Shown piece by piece: positions 1-53,200 of a stretch of DNA of 64,000 nt (its first letter is position 1; each line of letters opens with the position of its first letter). The translations under genes and the position numbers were made by a program. Source of the DNA: Branchiostoma floridae. Its lineage: Eukaryota > Chordata > Leptocardii > Amphioxiformes > Branchiostomatidae. The stretch covers positions 15,385,161 to 15,449,160 of the forward strand of contig NC_049996.1 in the NCBI RefSeq assembly GCF_000003815.2. Direction: 5' to 3'. The notes under the pieces were generated by a model. It did not search any database, was not told where the DNA came from, and saw nothing but the letters and a program-made list of their open reading frames with translations.

Positions 1-1427
1 GCTCTGTGCTTGATTTATTTACTCCTTACCTCTACTGGTAGTCCATAGAGTTCACAGCAGGGGTGTACTCATCTTTTTTTACTATAGCTACTTCAGTAGG
101 GTAATAGTAGAGTAGGCGGCCTTCCCAGTGTGAGTGGCTCAAAAACTTGCTGTCCTTTGGTAGCACATGGGGCAATTGCAATTGCTGTCGTATTGAGGTC
201 ACTTGAGTAGCGCTGAATGGCAGCCGCTCCAGACCCTTGCAACAGTCGTGTTGAGGTCATGATCACCTGAGTAAGCGCCGAATGGCAGGTGCTCCAGACC
301 CTTGCGATTTAGCCTATTGTAAGATCCTCTCAATTCAGCCCATGGCTGCCAAGAGAGAGTAGTCATCGCACCCAATAACAATAACAATAACAATAACAAT
401 TAGCCAATATCTTAATTTGAAAGTTCAACTGTGTTGGTAAAGTCATCCTGAATCAGAATACAATTTGTAACTTCCAATACCAAAATAATTGGACTTGGTC
501 TTTTGTTTGCATTTGTTACCATGTTTGTAGATGAACAACATAACTCAAGAAGCCATCGATAGATTGTTAACATGTATGTGATTAGGTTTTGACCTATGAA
601 AAGAATGATTAGATTTCGGGACCACTGGTGACCTTTTCTTCTTAGCAAAACTTACTAGAATCAAGTATATATTACAAGGAAATTGATACCAATTCAACTG
701 ACTGCAATATTAGACTGCATAAAACTCCTTTAATGTTGTTTGATTTCATACCAACACATATAGGTTACGTAAACTTACTCCTAAACAAAAGGCAGAACAT
801 GAAATGTGAGAAAATCGTTCACAAGAGGGAGCCATGGGAAAACTAGAGGCCTGTCTCCTCACGATTGTGACTGACAGTGCTATCGCCCCCAACCCCACGG
901 AGACAGACACTTGATCAGAGAAGTATTTCTCCTGTTGAAATCCTGGCAAGGTTTTGAAGGATGAAGTGCTAGAATGGTATGTTATCTGGTGTGCTAGTGC
1001 CTATAAATACCCCGTTGATGGAGTTGTTTAAGTTAGGGTTGAGTGATGGATGATTGGGGAACAGACAGGTCAGCAGTTGTGATGCTGTCAAGATGCAGCT
1101 GCAGTTTGAGGCTAATCTGATAGAGGGGGCAGCTGTACTGGTGTAACACCATCATACGTAATGGGGGTAACTTGGGTAGTTGAATTACCGAATAACAATA
1201 TTCTTTATTCAGAATCAGGGAGTAACATTACAGCCAATGTTACAGCGCCAGTTGATAATCGATGGAAGTAAGCGGTTATGTTTTGCCTCATCTACAGTGT
1301 TCTTTCTAAACCCTGCTCATAAGCTATACTGTCATGTAGTAGTGCAGTGTTATAGAAAACATCAGTCTAGCTGTTAACACTGCAAATATCTTGTATTTTC
1401 AGGTAGGCTTTCACTGCAAGGGTAACC
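1..1427. other. Upstream flank with short tandem duplication; no gene seen
   Basis: No convincing coding exon is visible. Positions 190-307 hold two copies of a unit of about 58 bp that ends in the sequence CTCCAGACCCTTGCRA. A short (AACAAT)n tract lies near 370-400. The right end leads into the echo of BTB-TLDc exon 1. The promoter or 5' UTR exons of the BTB-TLDc gene may lie here, but I see no TATA or initiator motif that would settle it. Confidence 0.5.
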
Positions 1428-1492
1428 ATGGGAACACAGGTTCCGCATTCCGCGTCGCTTCCCGACGGCCTGTTCTCGGGGCTGCCTAGCCT
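1383..1492 (+). repeat. Partial duplicate of the exon 1 start of the BTB-TLDc gene
   Basis: This segment repeats 1833-1950 almost exactly. It includes the pyrimidine tract and AG, the AACCATGGG start context and the first codons ([10 protein letters not shown]), then diverges after the codons for the SGLPSL segment. The copy cannot continue as a BTB domain: its frame runs into intron-like sequence and stops. It is either a decoy first exon or an alternative start with a truncated product. I infer that it is a duplication echo. Confidence 0.75.
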
Positions 1493-1883
1493 GTTTATTG
1501 TCTCCGTTTTGTTGTGTAACAATATCTGTATATGTGACAATATCTAACACTTGGGAGGACACTTGACAGCAACATCTTAACTGCAGTGCAAAGTGAAATT
1601 GTCAGAATTGCCTTGAGGAAGGTCGCAGATACGTCAGCTCTTATGTGACTCCCTTGTTGTGGATGAAGAACACTGTTGTTCTGCCTTTGAGATTCCACCA
1701 CATACGATTTGAGACTATGTGTCTGATACCATACTTTTTTTTGTTGAAAATTTTCAGGTAGGCACCACAAATGTTACCTGTCATGCCTTTGAGATTCCTG
1801 GATTTAAAACTATGCATGTAAGTCTGACATTGCAAATATCTTGAATTTTCAGGTACTAGTAGGCTTTCACTGCGAGGGTAACC

Positions 1884-4800
1884 ATGGGAACACAGGTTCC
1901 GCATTCCGCGTCGCTTCCCGACGGGCTGTTCTCGGGGCTGCCCAGCCTGGTCTCTGACCTTCAGAAGCTTCTGGACGATCGCGACACGGCAGACGTGATG
2001 TTCGTGGTCGGGCGGGAGGAGGTTCCTATGTACGCACACAGGCTGATCCTGTGGGCACGGTGTAAGGGGTACCAGAGGTACAAGAGGGACTTCTGGAGCA
2101 AGGTAGGTTTAAGATATAGATTTAATTTGATATACTTGTTACTTTGTACAGTCATGACATCAAGCATAGAAAAATAGAGGCAATAATGAGAATTCCATTC
2201 CTGGAAGTGAAAATGCATATAAAAGTGACATTTGAATTTTGGGCAAATGAAAAATCAGTTGGGGCAAGTCAATTTTTTATGTGCTTGCCCTATAGTAAAA
2301 GTGAATTTTTGGAAACTTGTCCAACCCTGGTACCAGAGATACAAGAGGGACTTCTGGAGCAAGGTAGGCCTATTTTAGGCACTTTCTTCTAGAATTATTC
2401 AATGTTCAAAGATATACGCAGTACCTTTGCTACACTAAAGTCTTGTAAAACAGAAATATGCACACCTAACAAAGGGAGACTTTTTCAAATATCTAATGTC
2501 ATCAGCTAGCTACATGTACAATTTGATAACTGTAAGTTCGTCTTCACAAGTTTTACTGAGAAGAGGGAAGAAGCATGTTGAAATATAGATACACATTTTT
2601 TTTTGTATAAGTAGAACATAAAATATTTCACCTATCATTCTCTTTGTAAAGTTTGTATGCAAATTACTGCATTTAGCCCCAAAGGTATGAGAGAGACTTC
2701 TGGAGTAAGGTAGGTTCAGGGTTGTGTTTAAAACCGGTTGTGTCACTCAAAAGTTAGAGATTCTGGGTTTGAATCCATTTGTGAGCAGGTCTCAATTTTT
2801 TTTCAATTCAGCTTTAGGGCTGCCTACCAAGGCTTGTACATGTACATTTGAATTGTTTTTTGAATGATAAACCAGTCATCATCATCATCATCGTCATCAT
2901 TTTTTTTTAAACAGGTTTGTGCCATGGAATAGTTTTGAATGCCTGAGGCTGAGAGGTAGCATTTTGCCAGCATTACACAACAATGCTATGCCCTTGAGAA
3001 AGGCACTTAATACGAACTCTCACTCCACTTCGTTGAAAATGAGTAATACTATCTATATTTAGTATTTTCAGGGAATTTTTGTTAACGTTACAACATGTCT
3101 GTCCATTTTACAGCTGTTGCCTCATTGTGCTATTTTCCAGGTGACAGGAATGAAGGGAATCATGACCATCAAACAGCCCAAGTACAAACCTGAGGTCTTC
3201 AGGAGTGTTCTCAACTACCTGTACACAGGAAAGGTAGGGGCTCACTATTGTACAGACTACAATGGAAAATAGCAGTTACTCAAGCAACAGAATATGATTT
3301 TGGTGGCATATCTTATTACCTTGATGTCTAATCTTTATCGACGTACAGAGAAAGATATAAGGATGTGCAGCATGTACAATGTATCTTGTGTAACACTTGC
3401 ATAACATTGCAAAGACTAAGGTACAAATTGTACAATGTAGGCACTTCATTCAGGTTTAATCCTCTACCTATATTTCGTACAGATGACACTGAATGATACC
3501 AGTGTTTTAGATAGTTAACTGTGATGTTGTGTGCTATATTTTGTACAGATGACGCTGAATGATACCAGTGTTTTAGATAGTTAACTGTGATGTTGTGTCG
3601 TATATTTTGTACAGATGACACTGAACGATACCACAGTGTTTTAGATAGTTAACTGTGATGTTAATGTGTGCTATATTTTGTACAGATGACACTGAATGAT
3701 ACCAAAGTGTTTTAGGTAGTTAACTGTGATGTTGTATCCTATATTTTGTACAGATGACACTGAATGACACCACAGTGTTTGAGGTGTTAGTGATAGCCCA
3801 GGACATGGGGGTACCAGACTTACAGTACAGCTGTGAGGAACACATCTCCAGTCAGCTGACCGTCCAAAATGGCTGCTTCTTCCTGGCGAATGCTTTAAAC
3901 ACTGTTCCCACGCTGACCACCAAAGGTTGGTTCTGTATTTTGAGATCTGTTTCTTTCTAGAGATATGTTCTGTCGGTCAGACTAGTTGACATGTTTTAGA
4001 TTTTTGATAATTGAATGTAAGGCCACACCAATTTAATTTCTTGGTTCACGGATTTTTTCATAAAGAATATGGAGCGAGAGGGCGAAATAAAAATGAAAAT
4101 AAAAATTGTAAAATGGTTGGGGTAAAGGTAACGGCTAATCCAAAACATAAAGAAAAAAAGTTTTCAGCTTGATAAAAGTACAAAAACACTATTTTTGTAC
4201 AGTAACAGCACCTGTACCCACACTTTAAGGAGCTTATGATATAAAGGCCAATTTGCTACACCAGAAAGTTGGTGAATGGTTTCATTAATGGTGAAAATTT
4301 GCTGAGTGGTAATTTTTATTTTTATTTTTTTTCCCAAAAAATAGGATTGAGCGAATCCGTGAACCAAGAAATTCAATTGGTGTGGCCTAATGTCAAGATT
4401 TTTTTGGGCACCCAATTTCTTTGGCAACCCTGCCAAATTATAGACTAATAGAGGCCTTCTCCACATCTATAAGACGTCTTTTAGGATTCAGCAACGTACC
4501 TATGATCTAGAAAACTTTTTAATACTTTAACAGTACACAGATCTATAAAGATTAGAAAAAACAAGGTTTCTTACATGCATATGTGATCCTTTTCCTTTTA
4601 ACATCTTTATTTAAAACTTTCTTAAGAAGGAGCCAAAGAGATCTACCTCCTTAGGTTAGAAGAGACAGTCTTTTTTTAATTTGTGCATTTGTGAGAAAAA
4701 TCCTTTTTACTTTTGTCTTGACATCTATAAACTTTCTTAAGGAGGAGCCACAGAGATCCATCCCCTTGTTGTCAGATGTCTTCACTTCATCGAGGAAAAT

Positions 4801-7800
4801 GCAGAAGACTGCTTGAGAACGGAAGGGTTCTTACAGCTGCCGAAGGAGTCGGTCATCAGACTTGTGTCCAGTGATCAGGTCAGTTGCTGTTGTATTTTGC
4901 CCCCAAACTTATGAAGAAAACTAACGTTGACAATCTTGTGATTCAGCTAGTTAACTCCATATTAACAACTTTACTTTGGTTCAGCTCCTGCTCGATCCAA
5001 GCTTGAAAGCCCCGTGATATCGTGCGGCGCTGTGGCAGTGTTTGTCGCATACCCTAGAGGTCCTGGGTTCAAAGCCTTTGATATGTCACCAACCTTGCGC
5101 CCTTGGAAAGGCACTTAACATGACTTTCCTCACTTCATTCAGGTGAAAATGAGTACCAAGCTTTAGCTAGGGCCATCCCTCAGATAGGACGTTAAATGGA
5201 AGTCACATGCTTGAGGAGAGCCACACCTACATAACTGACTACATAACAACATAGCAATAAGTAACACTGAGACTGTAAAGTTGTGCCTAAGTTCCTATGT
5301 AATCGATAAATTTTCCAGAAAAAACAATCTTGGTTGTCCAGGCACTTTTTGGCAATACAGCCACAAAACAGTTTCCTTAAGCCCCGTTTACAAATCAAGA
5401 ATTTAGCTCGGCCGAGTTGTCAGCGAGCTCTAAATTACGGGGCTTTACCACATGGTGTAGTATAATTTTCCATAGCAGCTACATTATTCTGACAAAAATA
5501 GGAGAGAAACTACCATGAGCTCAAATTAGTTTGCTAAAGAAACAGTGACTAGGTTAACAATGTAATCAGTGACTTAAAAAAGTTATGGTTTAAAATGCGA
5601 AGTCTTAACATTTTTACCAAATATTTCAGTCTATGATCAGTTCAGTCTATGATAATGTTACATTTATGAAAATTTTTTGAGTAATGTCCATTTATCAGAC
5701 TGTTCTCAAGCAACTTTTACTAAATTTGATCAGGTAAGTTTGATAGTAAAATAAACGTTAAACCCAAGTAATACCAACAACCTTATCAAATATCAAGGAG
5801 ACCTTATTAAGTAACAAGTAAGTAGTAAAAACCAACAACTACCACAACCTCTTAGAAAAATCTTAGTCTGATGTCAAGATGTTACAGTTCTAAATCATGC
5901 TTTACCAAACTCGGTAATTTCTGACTTTCTGTCTAACTACTGTGCCAGGTTTGATTTACCTAACTCAGTCAATGCACCAAAGAACCAATTTGCCCAACTT
6001 TGTGCAGTGGTCTATCAGCTCTACCTGCCTAACTATTGTAGTATACGAATCGGTGTTCCAGAGTAGGTTGCGTTTTGCCATATCTTGACATGACACTAGT
6101 GCCTATGTACTCTGTTTTCTTTCTGTATATATATAGAGACGGGCAAGTCCATCTTGCATGTCTGATAATCTGCCTAACTATTGTAGCATGTGAATCAGCA
6201 TTCCGGAGAAGGATTTGTTCGGTCGTATCTTGACGTGACAGCAAGTGGCGACTATGGCATAGACAGGAAGTGGGCTTCTCTTCAGAGCTTGCCTAACTGT
6301 GTGCAGAGTCTGTTCTGTCAGCTCTGTCTGCCTAACTATCGTAGCGTGTGGATCAGCATTTTGCAGAGAGGTTGCTTTAAAACTTAAATGGCTGTATCTT
6401 GACATGACAGTGCCTATATTCTCTGTTATTTTCTGTATAATATATAGACGGGAAGTCTATCTTGCTTGTCTATCTGCCTAACTATTGCACCCAGACACGA
6501 TGCTGGGGATTGAGCTCTATCTGCCTAACTATTGTAGCATTTGGATCAGCATTGCAGAGAAGGTAGCGTTGGGCCGTATCTTAACATGACAGTGCCTTAT
6601 ATACTCTATTTTCTTTCTGTATATATATATATATATATATATAGACAGGAAGTGGACTTCTCTTCAGTGTTTGCAAAGTCTATCTTGCATGTCTATCTGC
6701 CTAACTATTGAGAATTTCAGAGAAGGTTGCATTTGGTCGTATCTTAACATGACAGCCAGTGGCGTGTAGTACTACATGATACATAAACAGGAGGTTAATT
6801 TGCCTGCATATGTGCTCTTGTGCTCTTAGCTCTATCTGCCTAACTATTGTAGCGTGTGGATGAGCATTCCGGAGAAGGTAGCATTGGGCCGTATCTTGAC
6901 ATTCTCCTTGACGCGGAGCCAGACGCGATCCCGGGGGTTGAGCTGCAGGTACAGGGAGTTGCTGGTCATGGCGTGGCCAGACATGTTCATGCCCTGCTGG
7001 GGAGGGGGGCAGAACACAAAAGTTTAGGATTCCAATCGAAGGACATGTTCCAATGTTCAAGGTCATGAACTTCAAGGCACAAGGTTTGCCCTGACTGAGC
7101 ACTATTGTGCAATGTTCTGAATGATACCCTACTGGGGAGGGGGGCAGAACACAAAAGTTTAGGATTCCAATCGAAGGACGTGTTCCAAAGGTCAAGGTCG
7201 TAAACTTCAAGGCACGGCTCTTCAATAAAGATTTGCCCTGACCAAATGTTGTAGAGGGCTGAAGTTTCACATGTATGATGATGGCGTGGCCGGACATGTT
7301 CATGCCCTGCTGGGGAGGGGGGCAGAACACAGAGGTTTAGGATTCCAACTGAAGAACATTTTCCCAAGGTCAACTTGACACTAATGCATTTCAATAAAGA
7401 TTTGCCCTGACCCTCTATTGTAGAATACCCTGCTGGGGAGGGGGACAGAAAACAAAAGTTTAGGATTCCAATTCAAGGGTATTTTCCAAAGGTCAAGGAC
7501 ATGAAGTTCAAGGCAATTCAATAAAGATTTGCCCTAAAACACTTTTTTGGAAGGACAAAGTTTCACAGGTATATGTATGATGATACATGAACATATCGTC
7601 TCTGTAGGTCAATGAATTAAGTCTAAACCTTTGATATGTCGATGAAAGTTTGACAGACGAGTATATAATTAAGATATGCCAAGTAACAGTTAATCAAGCA
7701 ACTGAATGTGAGTTTTGGCAAATCCTATTTGTTTCCAAAATAAATGATGTTTGGCGAATCCTCTATAGTTCCTCTTTTAGGACTCTATAACTCACTTTTG

Positions 7801-10800
7801 TCCAGGATTCCAGAATGACATATCCATGAAAATTTTTTTTTTTTAAATTTTGGAAACGGCCCAAAATTGATGCGCACGCGGATGTCATCAACATGGCCTA
7901 AAACAACTCCAATGACCGGCAAAGGACATACCTGCAGGGACACGATGGTGACGCCGTTTCTGACCAGCTGGACCGGTTCGTACTGGTTCTCCGGGTGCTC
8001 GCACAGAACGTGGAACGTGAAGAAGTAGATGCCGGGCTTCTCTGACGTGAAGCTGTGGCCATCAAAACCTGCAATAACAAATGGGATCCACCTCAGATGA
8101 AGTCAATTTTAGGATGTTTTTATTTTCCTGGGAATACTGAAGATGCAGAAATATTTGCAGTGGTTTTATGTTTGCATTTTTTTTTGCTGTGGCTGCCTCA
8201 CTGCGAACTCGGAACCACCGCGAACATTTCCATTATAATTTGTAGTATGTGCATGGCGCTACTGCAAACACAAATCCACTGCAAACACTCCAATTTTCTT
8301 GCTGCCGTGAAATAAACCCCGTCAACATAAATGCATTTACAGTAGATATATCTTAATCTTTAGATTACTTTCTTTTCCATACACAATGTGTTCCTTAATT
8401 GTTATTCCGATATTTCCAGACAAGCATCTTTCTTAGTTAATCTTTTTGTCAGGTTTACTGAGTGCAGCAGTTGAGTAGTAGAGTATCATCTTACTCCTTT
8501 CTTGACGTTTCATGCATATTCTTCGGACCACAAGTTTTTTGCTAAAAATGCTGACTGTTTCCAAATTCAAGAAAACGTAATATTCAATATCTACATAAAA
8601 GATCAATAGTTCCATGTTATGATTTTAGCCTTGTTAAACCTTGTACAGTTAAGAACTTCTAGAATACTTCTTGCCCATTGCTTGTGTACGACAGCTTTGG
8701 TTAGTTGAAGACAAGAGAGCAACCATTGATTCCTTGTTGCCATCCAGTAAGGGAAAAAGGACACTGTCATAGCAAAGATCAGCATGTCACTGGAGAGACT
8801 ACTATAATTACTTTCCATTTAATGCCCATTTGGACTTCATTTCTGCATGCCCCCTAACATGCTGCAGACACAGTAAGAAGAATGCATGTACCCCAGCTTT
8901 CTGTCAGTAAGGCCATATTGATTTGATTATATGGATGACATCCGTGCGTTCATCAGTTTTTTTCCGTCCTTAGGAAAAGCAAGTTTTCAACCATATTATA
9001 CTTTTATAGATAGTACAAAGTAGCTGTAAAATGCTGTATATTGCAAAAAAATATCGGAGAACAGACGCTAATGTCATACATTGTACAATGCCAAAGTCAA
9101 TTTCAAAGTCAATGTCAAACAAAATTAAGAATCTATTGTTCGATGTCTAATTTTTTTGGTCAGTTTTAGAATTCCCAGAATATGTCATCCATATGATCAA
9201 ATCAGCCTAATGTAAAACATTTGCACAAGCTTGGTTAAAGGTTTTAACAGCCCAGCAAGTCGGGAGGGGGGCAAGATTTAGGCCTAGGGAATAAATGCTG
9301 TGTTTCCTGTTTCCCTACCTACTCTAGAAAAAATTGCAGACCCTAGACTTTTTTGGATGGGCAGTCACATAACTTCCAGTTAGAATTTTTATTCAACCTA
9401 CTTCCTATTGAAGTAAAAAACACTGCTTGTCCTATTTTCTTCTTCTTCAGGTTGAGATGGCCAACATCGTCATATTGATGAATATGCTAATGAAGGATAA
9501 AAACTATCTATTATGCTCAACATTCAAGTTTGACATTGAAAGACAAGTGTTGCATGCATTTTCTCTTTTGTTCAACTGTATTGTGATATGTATCACTAGA
9601 GGTTTGGGCCAGCCTTAAAGAAATCACAAGAAAAAAAGATAGCCCCTACCTACCGACCCTAATTTTTCAGGACTGAAACAGGAGACAACATTTTTTTCCT
9701 TTGCCTTATTAAACCTAAGTTAGGTTTTAACAGCCCGGCAAGTCGGGAGGGGGGCATGATAATGATTAAGAGCAAAATCAAGGCTGGCTGTGTCAAGACC
9801 ACCCACCTCCTGTTCCCCGGTGACCTCTTGGTCGAGGTTTTTCTGTGAACAAAGTTAACAATGTGGAAACTTTAATCTGTTCAGTCAGGCTGAAATTGGT
9901 CAAGTTTAAGTCTTAGAGTATATCATCGGGACTAGTTAGTGATGCTTGCGCATTGCTGAAAGTTCAGAGAAAGATTGTATCATAGTTTTCCTAACATTTT
10001 AAGCGTTGAAACACCACCTGCAAAGCAGGTTAGTGCAGGTTGTGCACTGTTGTAACCTGCATCTAATATGTGCCAGCCACATGCAGCATTCAATAATTTG
10101 ACAGCATATAAGGTGGCATCAGGACCACATTTATACATTTTTTTATGGACTGTAAGAAATCAAAAAGAGTAAGAATTTGAAAAAATTGTAAAATATTAGA
10201 TTATACAATGTATCTATCTGTGTAGTTGCACATTTGAGAATGGTTTGACTATAGAATGAGACTGTTGAATACTAAGCTTCAGAAGGAGTGATCTGTGTGC
10301 ATTTGCTCACCTGTTCCTGTGTTTATAAGCACTTTGTCGAAGATGATCCTATCCTGTCCGCTGGGCCCGCTCCCAGTGTGCACCGCTGAGAACACCACTG
10401 GCACAGTATCCGGTTTTGGGGTCACCTCAGGTCGTCGTCGCTGCGGGAATATCCGCTTGATGTCCTCCTCGCTGAGGCCAGGTCCAGGCGGCCCCGGCGG
10501 GCCAGCGGGACCCTGCGGCCCAATCTGCCCGGGTAACCCGGTTGGGCCGATCCACCCCTGTTCGCCTTTGCTGCCGGGAATGCCCGGGCCGCCGATGGGA
10601 CCGGGGCTGCCGGGAGCGCCGATCGGGCCTGGGGTTCCCGGCGACCCGGGTTGACCCGGGGGTCCTGGTGGCCCGGGGTAGCTGCTGTAGCCAGACTGCG
10701 AGCCAGGCTGGGTGTACCCGGGTGTGCCCGGGGGACCTGGGTCGCCGCGGGCTCCTTTGTCTCCTTTTGCGCCCGGGACGCCGGGAGCACCCAGCATACC

Positions 10801-13800
10801 GGGTGGGCCGGGGACTCCGGGTTGGCCAGGTGGCCCGGGTAGTCCCGGACCTGCAGCGCTGGGATTGAAGCGACCGGTTGTAACGGAGGTGCATTCCTTG
10901 CAGAGACCAGGTAATCCTGGGGGGCCGGGGGGTCCTTGTGGGCCAGGGGGGCCTGGTCGGGCGGGTCCGGCGGGTTGGTCAAAATACGGACTTCCGTACG
11001 GCTCTCGTGGGCCAGCTGGTAACGATGGCCCCGGAGGGCCAGGCGGGCCAGGAGGTCCTTGAGGGCCACTTGTGCCAGGCGGGCCAATCACTCCGGGTGC
11101 GCCGACAGGGCCAGGAAACCCCCTGGGGCCCCCTGCTGACCCCTTCTGCCCGGTTAACCCAGGTGGACCCGGCTGCCCGGGTGTACCCGGGACCCCAGGC
11201 GACCCGGGTTCTCCAGCTGGGCCTGGGTCACCCTTCTCCCCCACGATAGGCAGGCTCACCCCGCCCTCCGTACCGGTGCACCGGATCTTACAGGTGGGCT
11301 GCGGTCCCGTGCTCTGTGTGGGCGGAACTGCAGGCTTATCGTCGTCAAACAGGAACCCCAACGTTAACGGAAATGTCCAGAGCAAGAGAATGCACGTCTT
11401 CAAATCCATTGTACACTGAGAATGTCACCCTTGCAGCTTGACAATGTCTTGTTTCTGTGAAGCTTTTCTGTGAAGCTGAGCCACACTGAAAATGTTTGCC
11501 ATATACTGAGAATGTCACCCTTGCAGCTTGTGTTGTCTCTGTGAGGCTTTATCTCTCAGAGTGCAGGAAATTTCTCAAAGTCCTGTGGCAGGCAGACCGT
11601 AGAACCCTGAGGCAGAGAGATGGACATAGAATAATTACCATTCCTCACTGGTACAAGACGTTGACAACTTTAACATGCATAGCAGCACTAATCAACCATT
11701 CCTTGTTGGTACAATTGTGACAGCTTTCAAGACATGGGAGGGGTGATAAATGAGTTTGCGCCTCACCAAAAGGTAATAAGTAATCTCCAAGCAGATCCTA
11801 CGGTAGCACAAGATAGTATCAAAAGCTGCCAGAGGAGTGAAGCTGGCCTAGGAGTGTGTTTGGCTACCACTGATGACTCCTTTTGGCCAGCTGTAGTCTC
11901 CTTAGCCTGCTTTGATACTATCTTATGCCACTGGTAAATCTGCCTTGAGATTAATGATAAGGTACAAAACTTAAACTTCAGTGCATAATTATTAAGTAGA
12001 AAGCCTTTGATGAATGTCTACCAATTTTCAAATCTTTGTACCCCATTTTGCAGGTGACACCCAGTAATGTTAGGTGAGTAAGACTGCAAACTGTGACCTT
12101 ACATTTTGGGTCAGTTTTGCTCTGCTGAAAGTCAGATACCCACTTCTTTCTAGTTCAAATACAAAGGGAATCCTCATTAAACATTTTGACAATGTCTTCA
12201 AAGATTTGATGGCATGAGGAACTCGACTCACACAGCTCTGATCACAGATCATTGATCATGATGATTTGAAATCAGGTGGATATTGATTAACGACCTCATT
12301 ACATGATTTTGCCACAAAATTTTAGTTCTATCTGCACCTTATTTCTGGGTGAGACCAAGAACTTATTGATCACCCCTTGTAACAGCACCAAGCAACATGC
12401 CACATATACATATTTTGCACTGGACACTTTCTGCTGCAGAAAACATAAATTTATTGTACAACAATTGTACAAGGTACCAAGCATAGCATCTACTGAGACT
12501 AATCTACTTAATACAAGAGTGCATAATATATAGTATGGGATGAAAATGGTCTTTTACAATCATTGGAGGCATTTGTAGCATCTAGACATTCTTTGATATA
12601 TTTTCCTAAGTATACCGTGCAGGGGTTGTCGCATACTTATAGCTCAAGAAAACTGTAACTGTTGTGCTAAACATTGTATAAAACATTTTATCGAAAGAAA
12701 AGAGTTGTTTCTTGAATACATACCATCCAAAATGTCAGTTGCAATGGGAGAACTGGTCTTCACCCAGTGACACTTATGTCGGGGCCATGTGGGGGATAAT
12801 CAGATCCTTTCCTCTGTTTGAGGGTGGGTAAGGGGTTTGGAGAGCCCTGCTATGGATGTTTTATTCACATCATTCTAGTGAGTACCTCCTGTGTTTAGTA
12901 TGTGTATTGAAGCCTAGTGCTGACTATGATGATTGAGAAAAATAGTCTGGTTAAATGTTGTGTTTGTAGACATACATGTACATTTGTACTACCATATCAT
13001 AACCATAGAACTCAATAAAAGCAATTTGATAAGTTTTTCAAAGAAACTGGATGTATGTAAGTCAAGTAAGTCAAGGATGTATGCAATTGAATACATGGTA
13101 AAATCAAGAAGGTTATTATTTATTAACCTCCTTGGTAAGAAACTGGCATCCAAAACTGAATTCGATAGGGAAAATTTTTTAATGCCTTGACTCCCTTGAA
13201 AAGGACCCTTGTGTTGTATAGTCCCAAATCAATTCAATATGCGACAAGATTGACCATTGCCTTCCTCTCTTAAACATTAATATTATGATTTGATTGTGAC
13301 TACAGTGAACAACCCTCAAGGAAAAACAAAATTAACAAAACTAGAGGTCTGTAGTTCCAAAAACCCTGAAGAAAAAAATAAGACATCATGTTATGTCAAT
13401 GAAGGTTAGACAATGTCAGCTAATAAGATACGCCGAAAAGCAGTTACTCAAGCAACTGGATATGATTTTGGAAACGGTCAGCCATTCGGTGTTTTTACTT
13501 AAGACATCATGTTCCTTGGTAAACCCCAACACATCCCTAGCAAGTGCAGACCTGCTTTTCTTCCTGACAGCCGGCGTGTTTACTGACCAACTGTAATAAA
13601 CACAAGATATGGCAACAATCCGAGGCATCTGTTACGTTAGACAACACAAACAACTCTGCAACTGTTACCGCAACGATTTTACCAGAAAAAATGTAAACTC
13701 TCTTTAGAAATATCACAACTTTTTCACAAGAAAACCTCCTTTTTTCAATTGAAAGTCTCTTAGAAATAGTTCTGCTGACAATCTTCAGTGACATTTAGAA

Positions 13801-32700: not shown

Positions 32701-33028
32701 TTAATTTGATCCTGACGACATGGTGACCAGGGTCCTGGAGCCCTCCGACACGAAGCTTTAAAAGATACTCCGACTGTACTGACCAGTCCAGCGGCCTGGC
32801 CACCACAACTGTACAGTTCGTACTCACAGAGAAGCGGCCATAGCGATCCCCGTCCAACATCACACACGGAAGTTCCGCTTTCTCCTCTCCCAGCATCTTC
32901 GGCAAACTGACAACACTTGTTCCAATCTTGGCATTTTCAAATACAGACACAGTGAAGTTGATGCCTTCATCGGCCCGGCAAAGTAGAAAATATAGATCCA
33001 GCAGAAGTATGATACCTTTGACTGCCAT
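29734..33028 (-). CDS. Receptor tyrosine kinase paralogue 2, 2 exons, 954 aa
   Basis: Exons are 33028-31136 and 30705-29734, joined in phase 0 at the codon pair EQ/VE. The signal peptide (MAVKGIILLLDLYFLLCRA) and module order match paralogue 1: cadherin-like repeat, spacer, EGF, Ig, EGF modules, TM (IGSMIVLAGCVATIIML), kinase. P-loop GMGRFG, VAAKE, HGDVAARN, DFG and SDVWSFG are all present. The intron (30706-31135) has a GTTTGT donor and a TTACACAG acceptor. The C-terminus is ETAV. The frame is intact with no sign of decay, so it is likely functional. An in-frame Met lies 13 codons upstream, but the signal peptide favours 33028. Confidence 0.88.
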
Positions 33029-33079
33029 ATTGCGGCCACGATTGTGCAAAGAAAGTAAGCAAAGCAAGTAAGCAAGCTC

Positions 33080-37200: not shown

Positions 37201-37582
37201 TTTCACACGTCTCGTTGTACACAGGAGGATAGCCCAAAACGTTTCTCACATTTAATTTGATACTGACGACATGGTGACCAGGGTCTTGTAGCCCTCCGAC
37301 ACGAACCTTTAAAAGATACTCCGACTGTACTGACCAGTCCAGTGGCCTGGCCACCACAACTGTGCAGTTCGTACTCACAGAGAAGCGGCCATAGCGATCA
37401 CCCTCCAACATCACACACGGAAGTTCCGCTTTCTCCTCTCCCAACAAAGTCGGCAAGTTGACAACGCCTGTTCCAATCTTGGCATTTTCAGACACAGAAA
37501 CGGTCAAGTTGATACCTTCATCGGCCTGACAAATTAGACAGCAAAGACCCAATAGAAGGAAAGTCTGGTAGTTACTTGTCAT
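34291..37582 (-). CDS. Receptor tyrosine kinase paralogue 3, 2 exons, 946 aa
   Basis: Exons are 37582-35717 and 35265-34291, with the intron at the same position and phase as in paralogue 2. The signal peptide differs (MTSNYQTFLLLGLCCLICQA), but the mature protein then follows the shared plan. The region between the EGF modules and the splice site is almost identical to paralogue 2 (PLLESLVPIGSMIVLAGCVA). The ligand-facing spacer is the most divergent part (FEQKFPQVIDKLQNPMFIWL). The kinase keeps GMGRFG, VAAKE, HGDVAARN, DFG and SDVWSFG. The C-terminus is ESTV, again a class I PDZ ligand. No frameshift is seen. Confidence 0.88.
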
Positions 37583-45100: not shown

Positions 45101-48100
45101 TGCGTATGTGCATGTGTGGATGTGTGTGTATGTTTGTGTGTGCCTGTGTTTGTGTGCGTATATGTATGTATGCAAGTATGTGTGTGTGTGTGTGTGCGTA
45201 TGTGTGTGTATGTTTGTGCGTATGTGTATGAGAGTGTGAATGTTTGTGCTTGTGTGCTTGCTTGCGCAAGTGAATGTTGACTGTTAATGTGTGTGCTTGT
45301 GATTGTTACAGTGCACGCGTGTGTATATACATAAACAATTAATACTTTTGTGTTGACAATTTCCATCACCTAAGGTATTCTCTAACCTATAAATACGGCG
45401 GGTAAGAATACTGTCAAGTATTAGAAACACGCTTCCACTCACCATTTCAGACGAACCACTCACGGACCGAGCCACACTGCAGAACAGGACAAGGAGAAGT
45501 TGGGTGAGAAGCTTCCCCCATGGATGAGTGTGGGGACCCTGGAAAGGGCCATTAAGGTGAATATGAATGATTTATTACAAATTCATGCCTACATTTTCTA
45601 TGATAGGTTGATTCGATGATCTTAGTAGGAAGAGTTTAGAATGAAAAGCTTGGTATGATTTCGGACACTCTCTCATATACTTAAATGTAAGTTCATCTGT
45701 GACGGTATATCCGTACACAAAATAAAGCGCTTACCAACAAGCTTATCAATCAGTCCACTGATCCTTATCAAGTTGAAATGACCCAAAGCCTATGTCAAGC
45801 GTCCAGACCAGAATTGTGACGTCAGCAATGGATCAAAGGTGCTTGGAAGTCGGTATCGGCCCCCGACACGGATGAGAATAGTCTGTTTCTTTCGGCATCG
45901 AATCGGGAACATTCACAAATGAAACGTGTCTCATTTTCCACTGCATCTAGACCACCATAGCAACACTGAACCATGACATGTGTCTCATTTTCCACTGCAT
46001 GAAGACCACCATAGCAACACTGAACCATGACATGTGTCTCATTTTCCACTGCATGAAGACCACCATAGCAACACTGAACCATGACATGTGTCTCATTTTT
46101 CCACTGCATCTAGACCACCATACATGTAGCAACACTGAACCATGACATGTGCCTCATTTTCCACGGCATCTAGACCACCATAGCAACACTGAACCATGAC
46201 ATGTGTCTCATTTTGCACCGCATCTAGACCACCATAGCAACACTGAATCATGACATGTGTCTCATTTTCCACCGCATCTAGACCACCATAGCAACACTGA
46301 ACCATGACATGTGTCTCATTTTCCACTGCATCTAGACCACCATAGCAACACTGAACCATGACATGTGCCTCATTTTCCACGGCATCTAGACCACCATAGC
46401 AACACTGAACCATGACATGTGTCTCATTTTGCACCGCATCTAGACCACCATAGCAACACTTAACCATGACATGTGTCTCATTTTCCACCGCATCTAGACC
46501 ACCATAGCAACACTGAACCATGACATGTGTCTCATTTTCCACTGCATCTAGACCACCATAGCAACACTGAACCATGGGAAACCTGACTGCGTCTTGACCG
46601 CTATTAAGAAGGACTTTCTGAAGGTCAAGAACAAACTCGGGATAGATTTGGCCGAAGATTTGGACAGGTTTGTATCTTAAGTTTGAATATAACGAATGGT
46701 TCGTGACGAGAGGTAATGCATTTTTATCATTTTTTTTACTCTAAAGGGAAAAGCAGACAGAGAAAGTAACATTGAATAGATACAGGTAGAGTCAATTTCA
46801 CTTCTTTCCTGCTAAAAATTTATGTAGACTTTCAATGCTTGCATTACGTCAGAAATGGAAGCAGAAATGATTACATTAATGAAAAAAGAGACAGAACAAT
46901 AATTGTAACAGACTTAAATAAATACAAACATAGAAACAATTCGAAGTTGTTACTCTGAGAGTGTAAGGCAACCTCCGTCGACAGAGTATTGTAGTCGGTC
47001 TATGTCTTGAGTGTCCGCACCTATATCTCTATGTTCCGTTTGCCGCAGTCGTATGTGGTTTGGCATGTCGTGCGCGATTATGCACTTTTTTCGGTAGCTG
47101 TTGTTATAATCGAGGTTTTTGTTTCTTCTCCAACCAGGCTGAACAAGTACAAATGCGAGGTGTTCGCCAACAAGTTCCTGTGCCTGCGACTGGGCCCGCT
47201 GTTCCAGGAGAACCTGGAGGACATGAGGTGGAGAGGGGTGGCGCTGGCACGCGCTAGCGACGCCGACGTGCTGCCGTCCAAATGGTGAAGCTTGTTTTTG
47301 TTTATGTGTTTGTTTGTTTGTTTATATCCTTATCTGGAGGAGATGAGGTGGAGAGGGGTCGCGCTGTCACGCGCTAGCGACGCCGACGTGCTGCCGTCCA
47401 AATGGTGAAGCTTGTTTTTGTTTATGTGTTTGTTTGTTTGTTTATATCCTTATCTGGAGGAGATGAGGTGGAGAGGGGTCGCGCTGTCACGCGCTAGCGA
47501 CGCCGACGTGCTGCCGTCCAAATGGTGAAGCTTGTTTTTGTTTATGTGTTTGTTTGTTTGTTTATATCCTTATCTGGAGGAGATGAGGTGGAGAGGGGTC
47601 GCGCTGTCACGCGCTAGCGACACGGACGTGCTGCCGTCCAAATGGTGAAGCTTGTTTTTGTTTATGTGTTTGTTTGTTTGTTTATATCCTTATCTGGAGG
47701 AGATGAGGTGGAGAGGGGTCGCGCTGTCACGCGCTAGCGACGCCGACGTGCTGCCGTCCAAATGGTGAAGCTTGTTTTTGTTTATGTGTTTGTTTGTTTG
47801 TTTATATCCTTATCTGGAGGAGATGAGGTGGAGAGGGGTCGCGCTGTCACGCGCTAGCGACACGGACGTGCTGCCGTCCAAATGGTGAAGCTTGTTTTTG
47901 TTTATGTGTTTGTTTGTTTGTTTATATCCTTATCTGGAGGAGATGAGGTGGAGAGGGGTCGCGCTGTCACGCGCTAGCGACGCCGACGTGCTGCCATCCA
48001 AATGGTGAAGCTTGTTTTTGTTTATGTGTTTGTTTGTTTGTTTATATCCTTATCTGGAGGAGATGAGGTGGAGAGGGGTCGCGCTGTCACGCGCTAGCGA

Positions 48101-49472
48101 CACGGACGTGCTGCCGTCCAAATGGTGAAGCAACAAGCTTGTTTTTGTTTATTTGTATGTATGTATGTTTGTTTGTTTGTTGTCATCCTTATGCACTGCC
48201 GTCCAAATGGTGAGTCAAGAAGATTGTGTGATTTTCTTTGTTTATGTCCTTATGGTGTAACACACCAGGTTTGTACTGAACAGCACAAGCTGCATATCCG
48301 GACAGACTTAATTGATCCAATCACATATACACCAGGAAGGGCTCCTGCTCTTTTCGATAAGTGTGGTGGGTTCTTTTACATGCTCGAGGCGTGGCTCTCT
48401 TCAAACACGGGACCTCAATTTAACGCCCTAGCTGAAGCTTGGCACTCATTTTCACCTGAAGTGAGGAGATCCATATAAAGTGCCTTTCAAAAGGGCACAC
48501 ATCGGAGCACATCAGGGTACGTGAACACATGACCTCTGGGCTTGGAGGCAAACACCTTTCCTTTTCACGGATGGTGCGGGAGAAGAAGGATCAAGAAGGA
48601 GTGGAGTCGGTAGTTTGTGTGGCAGGTGATGGGCAATCTTGACGCTGATTTTACCAACCCCACGTGTTGCAGGTATGCCAGTCTGAAGACAGAGTGTGAA
48701 GAGGTGGCCGTCCAGTTTGCTAACGAGCTGAACAAAGTGCTGACAAAGCTGGCCATGTTCTCATTGGAGGATGCGAAGAATATTCCAAACGCGATGGTGA
48801 GATGCTTTTACGCTTTAGGCGAAAGTTTAACTCTAAATCCCAGGTGAAAGTTTAAGTCCTTCCTCCAAATGATGCATAGGTCAGCAAGTCTACGAAAACC
48901 TCGCCTTCCGCACTGGTGTCTAAACGGTCTCAGCACTGGTTTTCTAGTGCTGAATGTTCGTCAGCACTCGGTTTCCAGTGCTGAAGCAGGCGTTTCCAGT
49001 GCTGAGAGGGCGTCAGCACTGGAAAACCAGTGCTGACGAACATTCAGCACTGGAAATCCAGTGCTGAAGCCATATACAGCACTGGATTCCAGTGCTGAAA
49101 AAGGAGGGTGAGGTTTTCGTAGTTTTTCCATAGGGCATCGCCCATCTCCGTTTGTGTTGCCCTGGGCCACACAGCTTGGCGTGCGGGTGCAACTATTTTA
49201 CTCTGAAGATCAGTGTGTGCAATTTTAAATTTGGTATGACCTGGCCGGTGATCGTAGTCAAAACTTCATTGACTGTTTCAATTGTATTTTTTCCCAAGGA
49301 AAAGCTGTGCCTTCTAGTGATGTCCCTCCCTGCGGACATCGTTAGCTCGAAGACCATGCAGGAAGCGCTGTTCTTTGTCGTGGAGCGCATGTTAGACGGA
49401 CATGGGGAGCTGTTAGCACACTGGTTCCAACAACGGAAGCCATCATTGGTGTTCAACATTGGCACAGGCTGA
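39180..49472 (+). CDS. Unrecognised His-rich, helix-rich protein, 14 exons, 648 aa
   Basis: Exons are 39180-39288, 39724-39827, 40738-40805, 41112-41268, 41807-41935, 42562-42748, 43514-43659, 44144-44311, 44791-45059, 45451-45556, 46609-46667, 47138-47284, 48673-48796 and 49299-49472. All are GT-AG with matching phases. The N-terminus has a His run (DHHHHPHHHHHHHGAHH); a second His-Gly segment (SYGHGHGHGHG) is in exon 9. Other segments look helical or coiled (VQEEIRESQNLMRAVAAG, RAERTRKAFLEKLRNILLI, WYASLKTECEEVAVQFANEL, KTMQEALFFVVERML). No signal peptide, membrane segment or catalytic motif is seen. I considered CCDC60-like or another ciliary-type coiled-coil protein, but have no residue-level match to support it. 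Exon 12's donor could be any of eight tandem copies; the first is listed. Confidence 0.72.
40445..40590. mobile_element. MITE, TCTCCAAGCAGATC family (copy 2)
   Basis: The left end TAGTCTCCAAGCAGGCATGA with CATAAGCTGGGGAAGGAGT is mirrored by ACTCCTTCCCCAGCTTATGA and then AAGATCTGCTTGGAGATTA. The element is about 146 bp. It lies in intron 2 of the His-rich gene, followed by another repeat word (CATGCACCGAAACGTCGGTG). Confidence 0.75.
41310..41470 (-). mobile_element. tRNA-derived SINE-like fragment
   Basis: Read on the - strand, it has TTGGCGCAATCGGCAGGGTG (A-box-like) and GGGTTCGAAAACAG (B-box-like), spaced as in a tRNA gene. A conserved body follows (CGGATATGCAGCTTGTATTG, CAGTACAAACCTGCTGTG). 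The body recurs on the + strand at 48252-48310 (TTTGTACTGAACAGCACAAG, CTGCATATCCGGACAGA). It lies in intron 4 of the His-rich gene. Confidence 0.6.
42119..42200 (+). other. Candidate extra exon of the His-rich gene (unresolved phase)
   Basis: The frame through 42135-42200 reads LGTYDSLLQSRVFDVMSRKL and then QKTG, which looks much more like protein than intron. It lies between exons 6 and 7, in the sense direction. However, acceptor (GACATAG/GT) and donor choices give phase 1 at both ends, while exons 6 and 7 join in phase 0. It may be an alternative exon, an exon with an assembly indel, or a chance open stretch. Confidence 0.35.
43101..43342. mobile_element. Nested-palindrome MITE
   Basis: The outer arms CCAACCGATCCTGTCTAACG (left) and GTTCGACAGGATCGGTCCA (right) pair. 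Inner arms also pair (ATCGAACAAATAGAACCCCC with GTGGGTTCTATATGTTCGAT; TTTCGAACACCTCCGTCAAA with TTTTGGCGGAGGTGTTCGAA). The element could fold into a long branched hairpin. It lies in intron 6 of the His-rich gene. Confidence 0.7.
43950..44113. mobile_element. pogo/Tigger-like MITE with TA target duplication
   Basis: The ends CAGTAGAAGCCAGTTTATTG and CAATTAACTGGCTTCTACTG are inverted repeats flanked by TA on both sides (43948-43949 and 44114-44115). The internal TTGCAC and GTGCAA words are also inverted. TA duplication and a CAGTAGAA-type terminus are typical of the Tc1/mariner-pogo group. The element lies in intron 7 of the His-rich gene. Confidence 0.75.
44330..44390 (+). repeat. Echo of the exon 9 start in the preceding intron
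   Basis: The stretch GGTGCCGCCGCATATCCTAC, then AGTCACGGCCATGTTCACGG and CCAC, matches exon 9 at about 44808-44855 (CCGCCGCCGCATGTCCTACG, GTCACGGTCACGGCCACGGC). It lies 19 bp after the exon 8 donor and about 460 bp upstream of the genuine exon. It is diverged and has a frame break, so it is probably a duplication relic. Confidence 0.65.
44423..44710. mobile_element. MITE with CCAACGTTTCGATGTCTGTC ends
   Basis: The left arm CCAACGTTTCGATGTCTGTC, then AGACACCCATCATCAGG, is mirrored by the right arm TGATGGTGCCTGACAGACAT, then CGAAACGTTGG. The element is about 288 bp with a non-coding interior, in intron 8 of the His-rich gene. Confidence 0.75.
45085..45300. repeat. TG-rich microsatellite in intron 9
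   Basis: Degenerate (TGTG)n, (TGTA)n and TGTGTGCG tracts run directly after the exon 9 donor of the His-rich gene. Long open frames in several registers here are a by-product of the simple sequence. Confidence 0.85.
45935..46585. repeat. 54-bp tandem array, about 12 copies
   Basis: The unit contains ACCATAGCAACACTGAACCA, TGACATGTGTCTCATTTTCC and ACTGCATCTAGACC. Units are 54 bp, except one of 60 bp near 46120-46140 with an ATACATGTAGC insertion. Variants (CCACGGC, GCACCGC, CCACCGC, CCACTGC) are ordered in a partly repeated pattern, which suggests block-wise amplification. The length is 18 codons, so - strand frames stay open (repeat HVMVQCCYGGLDAVENET). Exon 11 of the His-rich gene begins only about 25 bp beyond the last unit. 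Confidence 0.9.
47205..48135 (+). repeat. 120-bp tandem array copying the exon 12 3' end and donor
   Basis: Eight copies run from about 47213 to 48130, including the true exon edge. Each has about 75 bp of exon (GAGATGAGGTGGAGAGGGGT, GCGCTGTCACGCGCTAGCGA, then GTGCTGCCGTCCAAATG) and about 45 bp of intron (GTGAAGCTTGTTTTTGTTTA, GTTTGTTTGTTTATATCC). The last six copies alternate GACGCCGAC with GACACGGAC, a 240-bp higher-order period. The copies are nearly identical, so the array is young. Every copy has a usable TG/GTGAAG donor. Confidence 0.95.
48891..49122. mobile_element. Hairpin-rich MITE with TACGAAAACCTC ends
   Basis: The termini TACGAAAACCTC and GAGGTTTTCGTA are inverted repeats of 12 bp. 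Inside, the palindrome TCAGCACTGG-N-CCAGTGCTGA appears about five times in different arrangements, so CAGCACTGG and CCAGTGCTG alternate along the element. It lies in intron 13 of the His-rich gene, about 100 bp after the exon 13 donor. Confidence 0.8.
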
Positions 49473-49685
49473 ATGGTGGCCAATCAGCTGTACTGTAACA
49501 TATCTCCGGTTCCAACAACGGAAACCGTCATTGGTGTTTAACTTTGGCACAGGCTGAGTGGCAGCCAATCAGCAGTACCGTAACATATCCCTGGTTTCAA
49601 CAACGGAAGCCGTCATTGGTGTTTAACTTTGGCACAGGCTGAGTGGCAGCCAATCAGCAGTACCGTAACATATCCCTAGAGACAC
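49420..49685 (+). repeat. Three copies of the stop-codon region of the His-rich gene
   Basis: The end of exon 14 (GGTTCCAACAACGGAAGCC, ATTGGTGTTCAACATTGGCA, CAGGCTGA) is followed by two more units of about 85 bp with the same words plus GTGGCAGCCAATCAGCAGTA and CCGTAACATATCCCT. Both later copies carry TTTAACTTTGGCACAGGCTGA, so the stop-like TGA is copied too. They form the 3' UTR or flank. Confidence 0.9.
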
Positions 49686-49736: not shown

Positions 49737-49904
49737 AAAGTATTTCTCTCATCTAAGTTTTATATAATTACATTGTGTGTACATTCATAGCACTTATCAA
49801 GCATCAATTTGATACGTTTGTGCCTTAACTGCCAACATAGAACATAGATAAACTGAATGGGGGGAAAAAGGGGGAAGGCTGTATTGAACAGTTGACAACT
49901 TTTA

Positions 49905-50209
49905 CAGCCAGTACTACTTTACTCTTCTGTTTGTAGCATTTCAAACTGATCGGACAATGTGAAAGGGTCAGCTTTTACAGCCGGCAATACTTTACTCTTC
50001 TGTTTGTAGCATTTCAAACTGATCGGACAATGTGAAAGGGTCAGCTTTTACAGCCGGTATTACTTTACTTTTCTGTTTGTAACATTTCAAACTGATCGGG
50101 CAATGTGAAAGGGTCAGCTTTTACAGCCGGCACTACTTTACTCTTCTGTTTGTAACATTTCAAACTGATCGGACAATGTGAAAGGGTCAGTTTTACGACT
50201 GGCACTACT
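49905..50209 (-). repeat. 73-bp array copying the stop-codon region of MALSU1
   Basis: Four units (starting near 49910, 49972, 50045 and 50117) contain TACTTTACTCTTCTGTTTGT, then AGCATTTCAAACTGATCGGA and CAATGTGAAAGGGTCAG. The true exon at 50188-50250 carries the same sequence, encoding the C-terminus and TAA on the - strand. The units therefore sit in the 3' UTR as copies of the exon end. Confidence 0.9.
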
Positions 50210-53200
50210 TTACTCTTCTGTTTGTAGTATTTCAAACTGATCAGACAGTGCGAAAGGGAAGTTCAGGAAACTGATGTCGCGTGTTTGGTCGTCGTACTCC
50301 GATCCGAGCGTCCAGAGTTTTTCCAGCTCGTACTTCTCACGAGTCTCGGGGAGCATCATGTGCAGCGCTATGTTACCTGCAAAACGATGGAGGGACTGTC
50401 ACAAAGCGTCAATCTTTTACACCAAACAAAATCTATTTTGACACAATCTTTAACACATTTAGAGCTCATCTGTAGCAGTCAGAACATCTATCAAGAAGGA
50501 TATTTAAGGGGTTAAGGATATCCTAATGCAAGGAAATAGCAAATTCAATGAAAGGAGGATTTTTAACACCCGTAGTGAGGCTTTACAGTGAATATCTCTT
50601 TATCCATATTGTTTGGTATAGTGATATCATTGCCTTAGGAAGAACAACATCTGTTCTGAATCCTACTTTCCTTTTGAAACATTTACACCAAGGGATGCAT
50701 ACTCAGGGCTCGAAATACTTTTTCCTGCATACCTGCCCTGATGTAGGTAACATTGAAAATTTCCTGCACCAGACAGACTTTACCTGCACCACTCTGAATT
50801 TAGGAAGTATGGATCATACTGAAATTGTTCAGTAACCATTATTCTATACTTAATAGGTGGTAACAGTCAATGCAGCTAATTACAATCCACATGCACCTAC
50901 ACCATAGGATATTTATGTATAAAACCCAGTACATAGACCAGTGCAGGTTAGGTGCAGGTAGACACCAGAAATACCTGCACAGCTCCAATTTTACCTGCAC
51001 TAACCTGCTTATGCAGGTGGTATTTCGAGCCCTGATACTACTAGCCTGAGCACTATACTCTGTAGTGACTGCTGGCTAAATTGAGCCAGCGGTCACTTAC
51101 AGAAGATGGTACTCAGTGGTTTAGCAAGCAAAAAAATTGAGCCAGCGGTCACTACAGAGGATGGTACTCAGGTTAGCATACTACACTGTACAAAGAAATT
51201 ACAGTAATGATATATCTTTATTGTTTCCCGTAAGACATACCCAGGTCAATGGCCATCCAGTCATCACAGTCCGCTCCTTCTACTGTCACAAACTTGTCCC
51301 TGGCACCTTTCCGGTCTTTATGCTGTACAAGGAAAGCAATGAAACATTTACCACAAGAATGCTGAATCACAAGGTATAGCTTAAAGGTCACCAAAACATC
51401 AGTCAATAAAATCTCGTTTGTGTTACTTGTGCTTGTGCCGCTAAGGGAGCGGTCACTAGTGCATATGTACACACAACTCTGTATGAGTTGCATATTGGCA
51501 TTCATTTTGGTTTAGGTAAAGTTTCCAAGGAAGATGTTGTATTTTACAAATGTACTTTGACTTTTACAATGCAGCTTGGTTATCAAACCAGAGATCAAAC
51601 ACAAATTTTTGGCCGCAAACTTTACCAAAACCAAGAAAAAAATGTACATATGGAACTCTTACGGATTTGCATACATGTATAGGCACTTGCATAACTGGTC
51701 CCTAAGAAAATATCAATCAAGATACTATTCGAATTTTCCCCTGCCATGCTCAAGCTCCTTACTCAGTTTCACATCAAAACACCTTAGCCAAGGTCTGTCA
51801 GTGCCAGTCAAAGCTGAAGTGAAAGGATACGACGACTGCAATTCCTGTACTTTTATGTTCACGTTTTTCACAGTGACGACTGTAACATGAACTTATCATT
51901 ACATATAACAAATAATTCATCTTGGTGACGATAGCAAATATTTTGTTCACTGTGAACATTTAGATCTGAGAACAAGCTAAACTTTCTCAGACCGTGAAAG
52001 TTTGGTACCGAGAAGACAATTAAGTGAAGTACAACTTATTCAGAGTTAAACATACCAGACTTATGACATACTGTGCAATGGACTTCAGATGTCTGGTGGA
52101 GGAACCGCTCACAATAACCAGGAAATCCACATACTGCAGGGACTGTATAGAAGGAGAGTGAACAATATAAACAAACAAACAAACAAACAGAGAGGACAAA
52201 CAGATGGTCAACAAATACTAGGAAGCTTTAATGGGCATTTTGCTCACTTATCACTGTTTTGGGGATAGCAAACTCAAATGATAAGTGATACTTGTATGCT
52301 GATAACGTATTTAACGTTGCACATGTGCCCAATACACCCTGTCTTAACATCAATATTACTTCAAGAATCAACAGAGTAAGATTTTTGTTTCTATATTATG
52401 AGCTTAGTATAAGATATTAGATTAAGAAACGTTATGTAGAAATACTAATCTATAATGTAATATTAGTGTAATAAGCCCTTTCACAGATATCAGAACGCAC
52501 GTGTGGCGACAGGAAGTCTAGGTAATATGTTAAAGTTCAAGGTCTTGAAAAAGAAAACAGTCCTTGTCTCGACCATTGTTTCCATTTGCCTAACAATGTC
52601 CAGACGGGTTTTGTTTACTTTTTGTGGGACTTTACCTTTGACATATTACGTAAAATTCCTGTGGCCGCACATGCGCCCTGATCTCTGTAAGAGGGTTTAT
52701 GAGATTAAGTATGTAGAAATACTAATGCGATATTTAGCGCAATACACTATACTTAATATTTGAATATGAGACTTACCACAGGCACTTTGATAACACAGAT
52801 ATCCTTGGCGTTTTCTCCCCGTAACTCCTCCACAAGTTCATCAATGGTGAACACCCCCTTCAGCCTGGCTGTGGAGCAGACGGGGAACACAATCATCAAT
52901 GTTGCATAACGAGAGACATGTGTAACATTATAATGTAACATTACATGGCCATACAGTCATAGATATAGCTTTGTCCAAGCAGACGCGTCAACCATCTATC
53001 TATCAACCGGTCAGTTCACTCCTAGGCCAGAAACTGCTAGCCTGATTAAATCTCGCTTATAGCAGGCCGCCCAACATGCCTGGTTACAGCCTTGTCCCTG
53101 GACAGCGGAGTTTGTGTTATACAGACTGAATAACTGCTACTAGGATTTTATTCCTTACTTGGCAAAACCCCAATATTACTATTCGGCCAACCCTCAGTCT

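Follow-up and report, generated by a model that had tools for sequence, protein, structure and literature searches.

Local duplication of exon edges in four neighboring genes of the amphioxus Branchiostoma floridae

Exon edges of four neighboring genes in the Branchiostoma floridae genome (513 Mb in 431 contigs) have local copies that carry a splice site, start codon, or stop codon together with sequence from both sides of it. All four genes lie in a single stretch of 64,000 nucleotides (C18:15,385,161-15,449,160), hereafter the window. This locus raises two questions: do small duplications fall on exon edges more often than expected by chance and, if so, what could place them there? Based on counts of duplication events, we confirmed that the edge-straddling copies are real and far more common than chance placement of small duplications would yield. 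The arrays are almost certainly “mirage” minisatellites, a kind of repeat already published for single amphioxus genes.

Exon edges with local copies

Four gene models were rebuilt from the sequence alone; the reading frames of all four are open throughout, and each has Pfam support (positions are those of the window):

About 1.9-24.3 kb, + strand: BTB-TLDc gene, 11 exons, 490 residues; Pfam BTB, BACK, and TLD (TLDc)
1884-2102, + strand: coding part of BTB-TLDc exon 1 (gene model; Pfam BTB)
6844-11409, − strand: collagen-C1q gene, 3 exons; Pfam collagen and C1q; nested in BTB-TLDc intron 4 on the opposite strand
40.7-49.5 kb, + strand: His-rich gene, at least 12 exons; Pfam DUF4698 (E = 4e-7, barely over the cut-off)
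About 53.8-50.2 kb, − strand: MALSU1 gene, 5 exons; Pfam RsfS

The His-rich model is open at its 5′ end, where the exon predictor described below adds one upstream exon; exon numbers follow the rebuilt model. We defined 66 edges (30 acceptors, 29 donors, 3 starts, and 4 stops), counting in two introns of receptor-kinase-like genes and omitting a Fuseless-like gene and the starts and stops of the kinase genes. An edge was considered copied if same-strand self-comparison revealed a local direct copy extending at least 6 bp to either side of the edge. Twelve of the 66 edges (4 acceptors, 4 donors, 3 stops, and 1 start, so that splice edges make up 8 of the 12 cases) have such a copy:

1377-1949, + strand: start edge of BTB-TLDc exon 1; the 5′ part of the exon (acceptor-like AG, 5′ leader, start codon, and 66 bp of coding sequence) is copied upstream, about 450 bp from the true exon, with 112/123 positions identical
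2068-2716, + strand: end and donor of BTB-TLDc exon 1; copies at +261 and about +607 (self-comparison)
3467-3785, + strand: acceptor of BTB-TLDc exon 3; 66-bp array of four decoys, then the true exon at 3754-3925 (Tandem Repeats Finder and self-comparison)
4614-4767, + strand: acceptor and 26 bp of BTB-TLDc exon 4; single copy 115 bp upstream (self-comparison)
5987-6902, − strand: final 59 bp of C1q coding sequence and stop codon; degenerate copies downstream of the gene (self-comparison)
6963-7572, − strand: acceptor and start of the last C1q exon; copies within the preceding intron (self-comparison)
15832-17033, + strand: donor of BTB-TLDc exon 5; 30-bp array of 31.5 units (Tandem Repeats Finder)
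18270-19132, + strand: donor of BTB-TLDc exon 7; 133-162-bp array with five decoys (Tandem Repeats Finder and self-comparison)
45908-46576, + strand: acceptor of His-rich exon 9; 54-bp array of eleven decoys, then the true exon at 46552-46667 (Tandem Repeats Finder and self-comparison)
47214-48253, + strand: donor of His-rich exon 10; 120-bp array (71 bp exonic) with eight decoys (Tandem Repeats Finder and self-comparison)
49421-49677, + strand: end of the last His-rich exon (exon 12) and stop codon; 85-bp array (Tandem Repeats Finder and self-comparison)
49896-50258, − strand: end of the last MALSU1 exon and stop codon; 73-bp array (Tandem Repeats Finder and self-comparison)

The original prediction of at least ten exon boundaries with edge-including tandem copies in four genes is borne out by these 12 edges, as is its statement that the units straddle the borders between coding and non-coding sequence: all 12 sets of copies reach both sides. 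The exons that it named agree with those found in BTB-TLDc (exons 1, 3, 4, 5, and 7), C1q (both ends of the last exon), and MALSU1 (last exon); for the His-rich gene, it listed exons 9, 12, and 14, which had to be corrected to 9, 10, and 12 in the rebuilt model. Introns without copies were thought to be a minority in these genes, but copies were detected in only 8 of the 27 introns (5/10 in BTB-TLDc, 2/11 in the His-rich gene, 1/2 in C1q, and 0/4 in MALSU1). The receptor-kinase-like and Fuseless-like genes, put forward as an unaffected contrast, have too few introns to serve as one: one kinase gene consists of a single open frame, two others, similar by their open frames, contain one intron each, in the same place, and the Fuseless-like gene is predicted to have two exons.

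The arrangement is direct, local, and on the same strand, as indicated by both the Tandem Repeats Finder arrays and the same-strand clusters. Tandem Repeats Finder independently recovered at least seven of the arrays (16 of its 32 rows were checked). Array units span about 30-184 bp, whereas three cases instead consist of copies spaced 261-453 bp apart; BTB-TLDc exon 1 (at either edge) and exon 4 have one or two local copies and no array. Across the cases, the identity of the best copy ranges from 69 to 97%. In all 22 cases available (12 from the window and 10 from a sample of other genes described below), the true exon is an end member of the series, the first for a donor or stop and the last for an acceptor.

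Each 30-bp unit at BTB-TLDc exon 5 contains an AG, a stretch similar to the end of the exon (11 bp, or 9 bp in the first copy), and a donor that is nearly always GT; beyond the array, there is a second and larger copy of the 3′ part of the exon (about 16769-16845). Because 30 is a multiple of three, a 412-codon open frame (15703-16941, + strand) extends from exon 5 through the entire array into the second exon-end copy, in the same frame; it is a candidate for exonization or intron retention. The array at His-rich exon 9 has one short match in another sampled locus. The array at exon 10 of the same gene, the only one searched genome-wide, has one full genomic place, with only eight short T/G-rich matches elsewhere.

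Enrichment over random placement in the window and in other genes

For comparison with random placement, duplication clusters were defined by a spacing of 20-1000 bp and a score of at least 22 (strong clusters, best score of at least 60), and one unit per cluster was placed randomly to obtain the null. In the window, 12 of the 25 clusters straddle an exon edge compared to 1.50 expected (P = 2.5e-9). Nearly all of this signal comes from the strong clusters, of which 10 of 11 straddle an edge (0.94 expected), or 10 of 10 within the four gene spans (1.41 expected); taken by themselves, the 14 weak clusters are not significantly enriched (2 observed, 0.56 expected, P = 0.11). The excess of events persists at edge margins from 4 to 20 bp and at identity cuts of 85 and 90%. 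Among arrays with at least 85% identity, all 7 strong clusters (0.80 expected) and 9 of the 14 clusters overall (1.12 expected) straddle an edge. Under a conservative rotation of whole arrays, the observed 12 of 25 was not reached in any of 1200 rotations (mean 5.2, maximum 11), and neither was the strong count; for arrays with at least 85% identity, this test yielded P = 0.0008 (9/17) and, for the strong clusters, P = 0.0025 (7/7).

A permutation of the overlap between arrays and exon edges had been proposed along with the original prediction and, when run within the window, it came out differently for events and for bases: event counts and whole-array rotation show the excess, but base coverage does not. 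Rotation of base coverage gave 7 of the 59 splice edges with 8-bp margins (mean 7.4) and 12 of all 66 edges with 6-bp margins (8.4, P = 0.18). We did not rely on the base-coverage test because amplification after the birth of an array, whereby one founding duplication can grow to 900 bp, inflates coverage. The window was chosen by a reader for its striking look, which bears on the enrichment measured in it.

The sample of other genes in the same genome consisted of ten stretches of 20 kb, taken at round coordinates from ten contigs, with a later addition of 70 kb that extended two regions already showing straddling clusters (on C2 and C4) and a P450 region without any. Sample exons came from a small predictor trained on the window and were kept at a score of at least 12 (at least 15 in one step). 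On the window itself, this predictor recovered 66 of 70 boundaries, and 31 of its 90 predicted exons were exact to the models (before removing opposite-strand overlaps). Gene spans were chosen by eye as same-strand runs of exons, with exons and clusters viewed together beforehand; exons entirely within a cluster were left out of the boundary sets, and clusters without a match among the other sampled loci were considered locus-specific. The six resulting spans, with 214 predicted edges, correspond to DMXL/Rav1-like, Ku70, SLC9C, an ammonium transporter, a P450 run, and unk_C4, a span with no identity. Homology supports five of the six (one gene was tested in the P450 run), with none for unk_C4.

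These six spans contain 18 clusters, of which 10 straddle the edge of a predicted exon, with 3.16 expected (P = 1.7e-4); for locus-specific clusters scoring at least 50, the count is 9 of 11 (2.30 expected), and for DNA fetched after the choice of genes, it is 6 of 12 (1.96 expected, P = 0.005). The single cluster of the P450 run does not straddle an edge. Across the whole sample, many arrays lie off predicted exons and some belong to families common to several sampled loci; 9 of the 38 clusters scoring at least 50 straddle an edge there (5.1 expected, P = 0.051). Affected edges are denser in the window than in the sample (12/66 vs 10/214, P = 0.001). The suggestion that the clustering seen here may be new is only partly borne out: this kind of repeat has been published for single genes and an enrichment also shows in other genes, but the density is higher in the window, itself chosen for its striking look.

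The focus on exons and its possible causes

When the window and the sample spans other than unk_C4 were pooled, 24 of 36 clusters were in contact with an exon (9.1 expected), and 31 lay no more than 100 bp from one (15.9 expected). This points to duplications that focus on exons and their immediate flanks and not on splice sites as such. The distinction matters for transcription- or splicing-linked strand slippage at splice sites, in which stalled polymerase, R-loops, or splicing complexes would cause local re-replication. Most affected edges in the window and sample (18 of 22; 11 donors and 7 acceptors) are indeed splice edges, although the same is true of most edges examined. In the window, start and stop edges are over-represented (4/7 affected vs 8/59 splice edges; Fisher P = 0.017, on small numbers), and the affected stop-codon edges therefore weigh against a splicing-specific cause. 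The position of the edge within the unit is uniform (22 cases, mean exonic share 0.52, Kolmogorov-Smirnov P = 0.69), which implies no fixed anchor and argues against slippage at a preferred site. We consider slippage unlikely; from the original proposal of a mechanism that targets exon edges, the concentration of duplications at exons is supported, whereas the link to splicing is not.

Less likely still is random tandem duplication combined with a detection effect, whereby coding constraint would keep straddling duplicates recognizable longer than intron-only ones. In keeping with such an effect, in 19 splice-edge cases the true edge and its decoys differ less on the exon side (median divergence 0.098) than on the intron side (0.146). 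The excess persists, however, among arrays with at least 85% identity, where equally young intron-only arrays would show.

It appears very improbable that the decoy splice sites or the copied edges are maintained by selection, for instance because they buffer or regulate splicing. The decoys retain GT in 60 of 63 cases and AG in 24 of 24, and among the 11 splice-edge arrays with at least two decoys, 9 show less decoy-decoy divergence on the exon side than on the intron side, which is not significant (P = 0.15); decoys within one array, however, are not independent. In the same arrays, the divergence of the splice core falls below that of the intron side in 6 and exceeds it in 5 (P = 0.28, with low power), and copies of stop codons are left unexplained by this kind of selection. 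We found no firm sign of selected decoys, and the earlier suggestion of selection for decoy splice sites thus lacks backing in the comparison of splice core and intron. Finally, an assembly artefact, that is, collapsed or stacked haplotypes, is the least probable explanation: heterozygosity is high and PGBD5 copy numbers differed between two assembly versions (PMC3902484), but the PGBD5 sequence was confirmed by re-examined Sanger and new Illumina data (PMC3902484), BflGb6 was reported with two haplotypes of 6 and 3 units (PMC3087553), the units in the window carry distinct patterned substitutions, and the genome-wide search with the His-rich exon 10 array, which found its one full place, yielded no second haplotype.

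The explanation that we favor, while giving it somewhat less than even odds, is that short recombination-linked duplications are seeded at conserved exons and that selection removes the harmful ones; both the mechanism and the selection filter are what we infer from the pattern. Duplications would arise in exons or within about 100 bp of them, via short tracts of recombination or repair synthesis. At a heterozygosity of 3-4%, exons would be the main stretches where homologues match and, if strand invasion needs matching homologues, strand invasion and mispriming would be concentrated at exons. Synthesis entering the divergent flanking DNA could then misprime and leave a tandem copy. Because units and exons are similar in length, nearly every exon-seeded duplication would straddle an edge, and some have since grown into arrays with tens of copies. 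The copy of the exon that is still connected to the remainder of the gene would stay functional, with the extra copies as non-coding passengers; protein-altering copies would be removed by selection, such that copies would remain at splice, start, and stop edges alike. Amphioxus heterozygosity has been estimated at 3.2-4.2%, and a B. floridae pedigree of two parents and 104 offspring (PMC12500494, PMC12862219) revealed non-crossover conversion events, about 10,000 of them paternal and 5,800 maternal, with tracts predominantly shorter than 200 bp (PMC12500494), which is the size of the units in the window.

Several observations weigh against this recombination-linked explanation. PMC12500494 relates crossovers to gene density and transposons, and the word “exon” is absent from its text; according to PMC12862219, its companion study saw no unusual recombination pattern that would explain the heterozygosity. 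None of the three clusters in the unk_C4 span, which has no Pfam support, straddles an edge, and when every predicted exon in the entire initial 240 kb is counted, the excess is not significant (9/63 vs 5.9 expected, P = 0.12). The 12 pooled clusters that lie off exons tend to be near exons, but not significantly so (P = 0.07). Inverted local copies in the same spans provide a weak control, with 0 of 8 straddling an edge where only 1.27 would be expected.

A broader proposal, which we put forward tentatively and regard as rather doubtful, is that in a hyper-heterozygous genome, exons serve as islands of homology at which short tracts of recombination synthesis are concentrated. Small tandem duplications would then occur mainly in or beside exons; mirages would be the visible scar that this process leaves and, genome-wide, would steadily supply new splice sites, exon-edge variants, and introns. 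New introns and altered exon ends have been proposed to arise, among other routes, by tandem duplication across splice sites, and a genome that duplicates preferentially at exons would let this route be studied directly in the existing pedigree. The enrichment, the recurrence in other genes, and the stop-codon edges make the cause testable with the existing pedigree data. Should heterozygosity be responsible, sea squirts and other hyper-diverse animals would be expected to show this pattern too, and their low-diversity relatives to lack it.

Neighboring features and relation to known systems

The window and the sample contain several features apart from the copied edges:

25646-37597, − strand: receptor-kinase-like genes; the gene at 25646-28606, which is the one with a single open frame, has kinase and Ig matches
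21894-23253, − strand: remnant of a tyrosine-recombinase transposon in BTB-TLDc intron 9, matched in two frames by Pfam DUF3504 and phage integrase
About 109-409: part of a dispersed repeat with 40 further genome matches at 80-86% identity among the best candidates scored
59994-60278: the sole strong window cluster off all modelled exons; 42-bp period, open frame, no Pfam match
C4, about 6.034-6.035 Mb (sample locus L032): AT-rich array off exon edges, with a unit of about 118 bp that matches four other sampled loci

The transposon remnant is presumably Crypton-like.

The original prediction had pointed to the mirage minisatellites of the amphioxus Adh gene, and the pattern in the window fits this kind. 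Mirages have been reported for Adh3 (Canestro 2002, cited in PMC3087553) and for the globin genes BflGb6 and BflGb9 (PMC3087553), and PMC3902484 describes a PGBD5 mirage and cites troponin C. They are reported to be unstable in length, somatically so at Adh3 (PMC3087553). Like mirages, the arrays described here are tandem repeats across exon-intron boundaries, at either side of an intron, and keep AG or GT in many copies. Published units measure 10-72 bp (Adh3), 150-160 bp (globins), and 60 and 108 bp (PGBD5), compared to 30-184 bp for the window arrays; identity is 69-97% here and 81-100% in BflGb6. Unlike the published cases, the window has many affected edges in neighboring genes, includes stop-codon edges, and shows an enrichment measured against random placement; its three stop-edge cases and one start-edge case are not covered by the mirage definition as published. 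No genome-wide survey of mirages was found in the literature searched (most subscription papers lie outside that search). New here are the measured enrichment, the recurrence in other genes, and the affected stop-codon edges.

Outside amphioxus, an RdRp gene of potato gained an intron via tandem duplication across an intron-exon boundary (PMC4974935). As in the window, the duplicated segment spans the boundary and bears splice signals; the potato duplication produced a new intron, whereas the window arrays are known from DNA alone. In the window, both an AG and a donor are present in the 30-bp units of BTB-TLDc exon 5.

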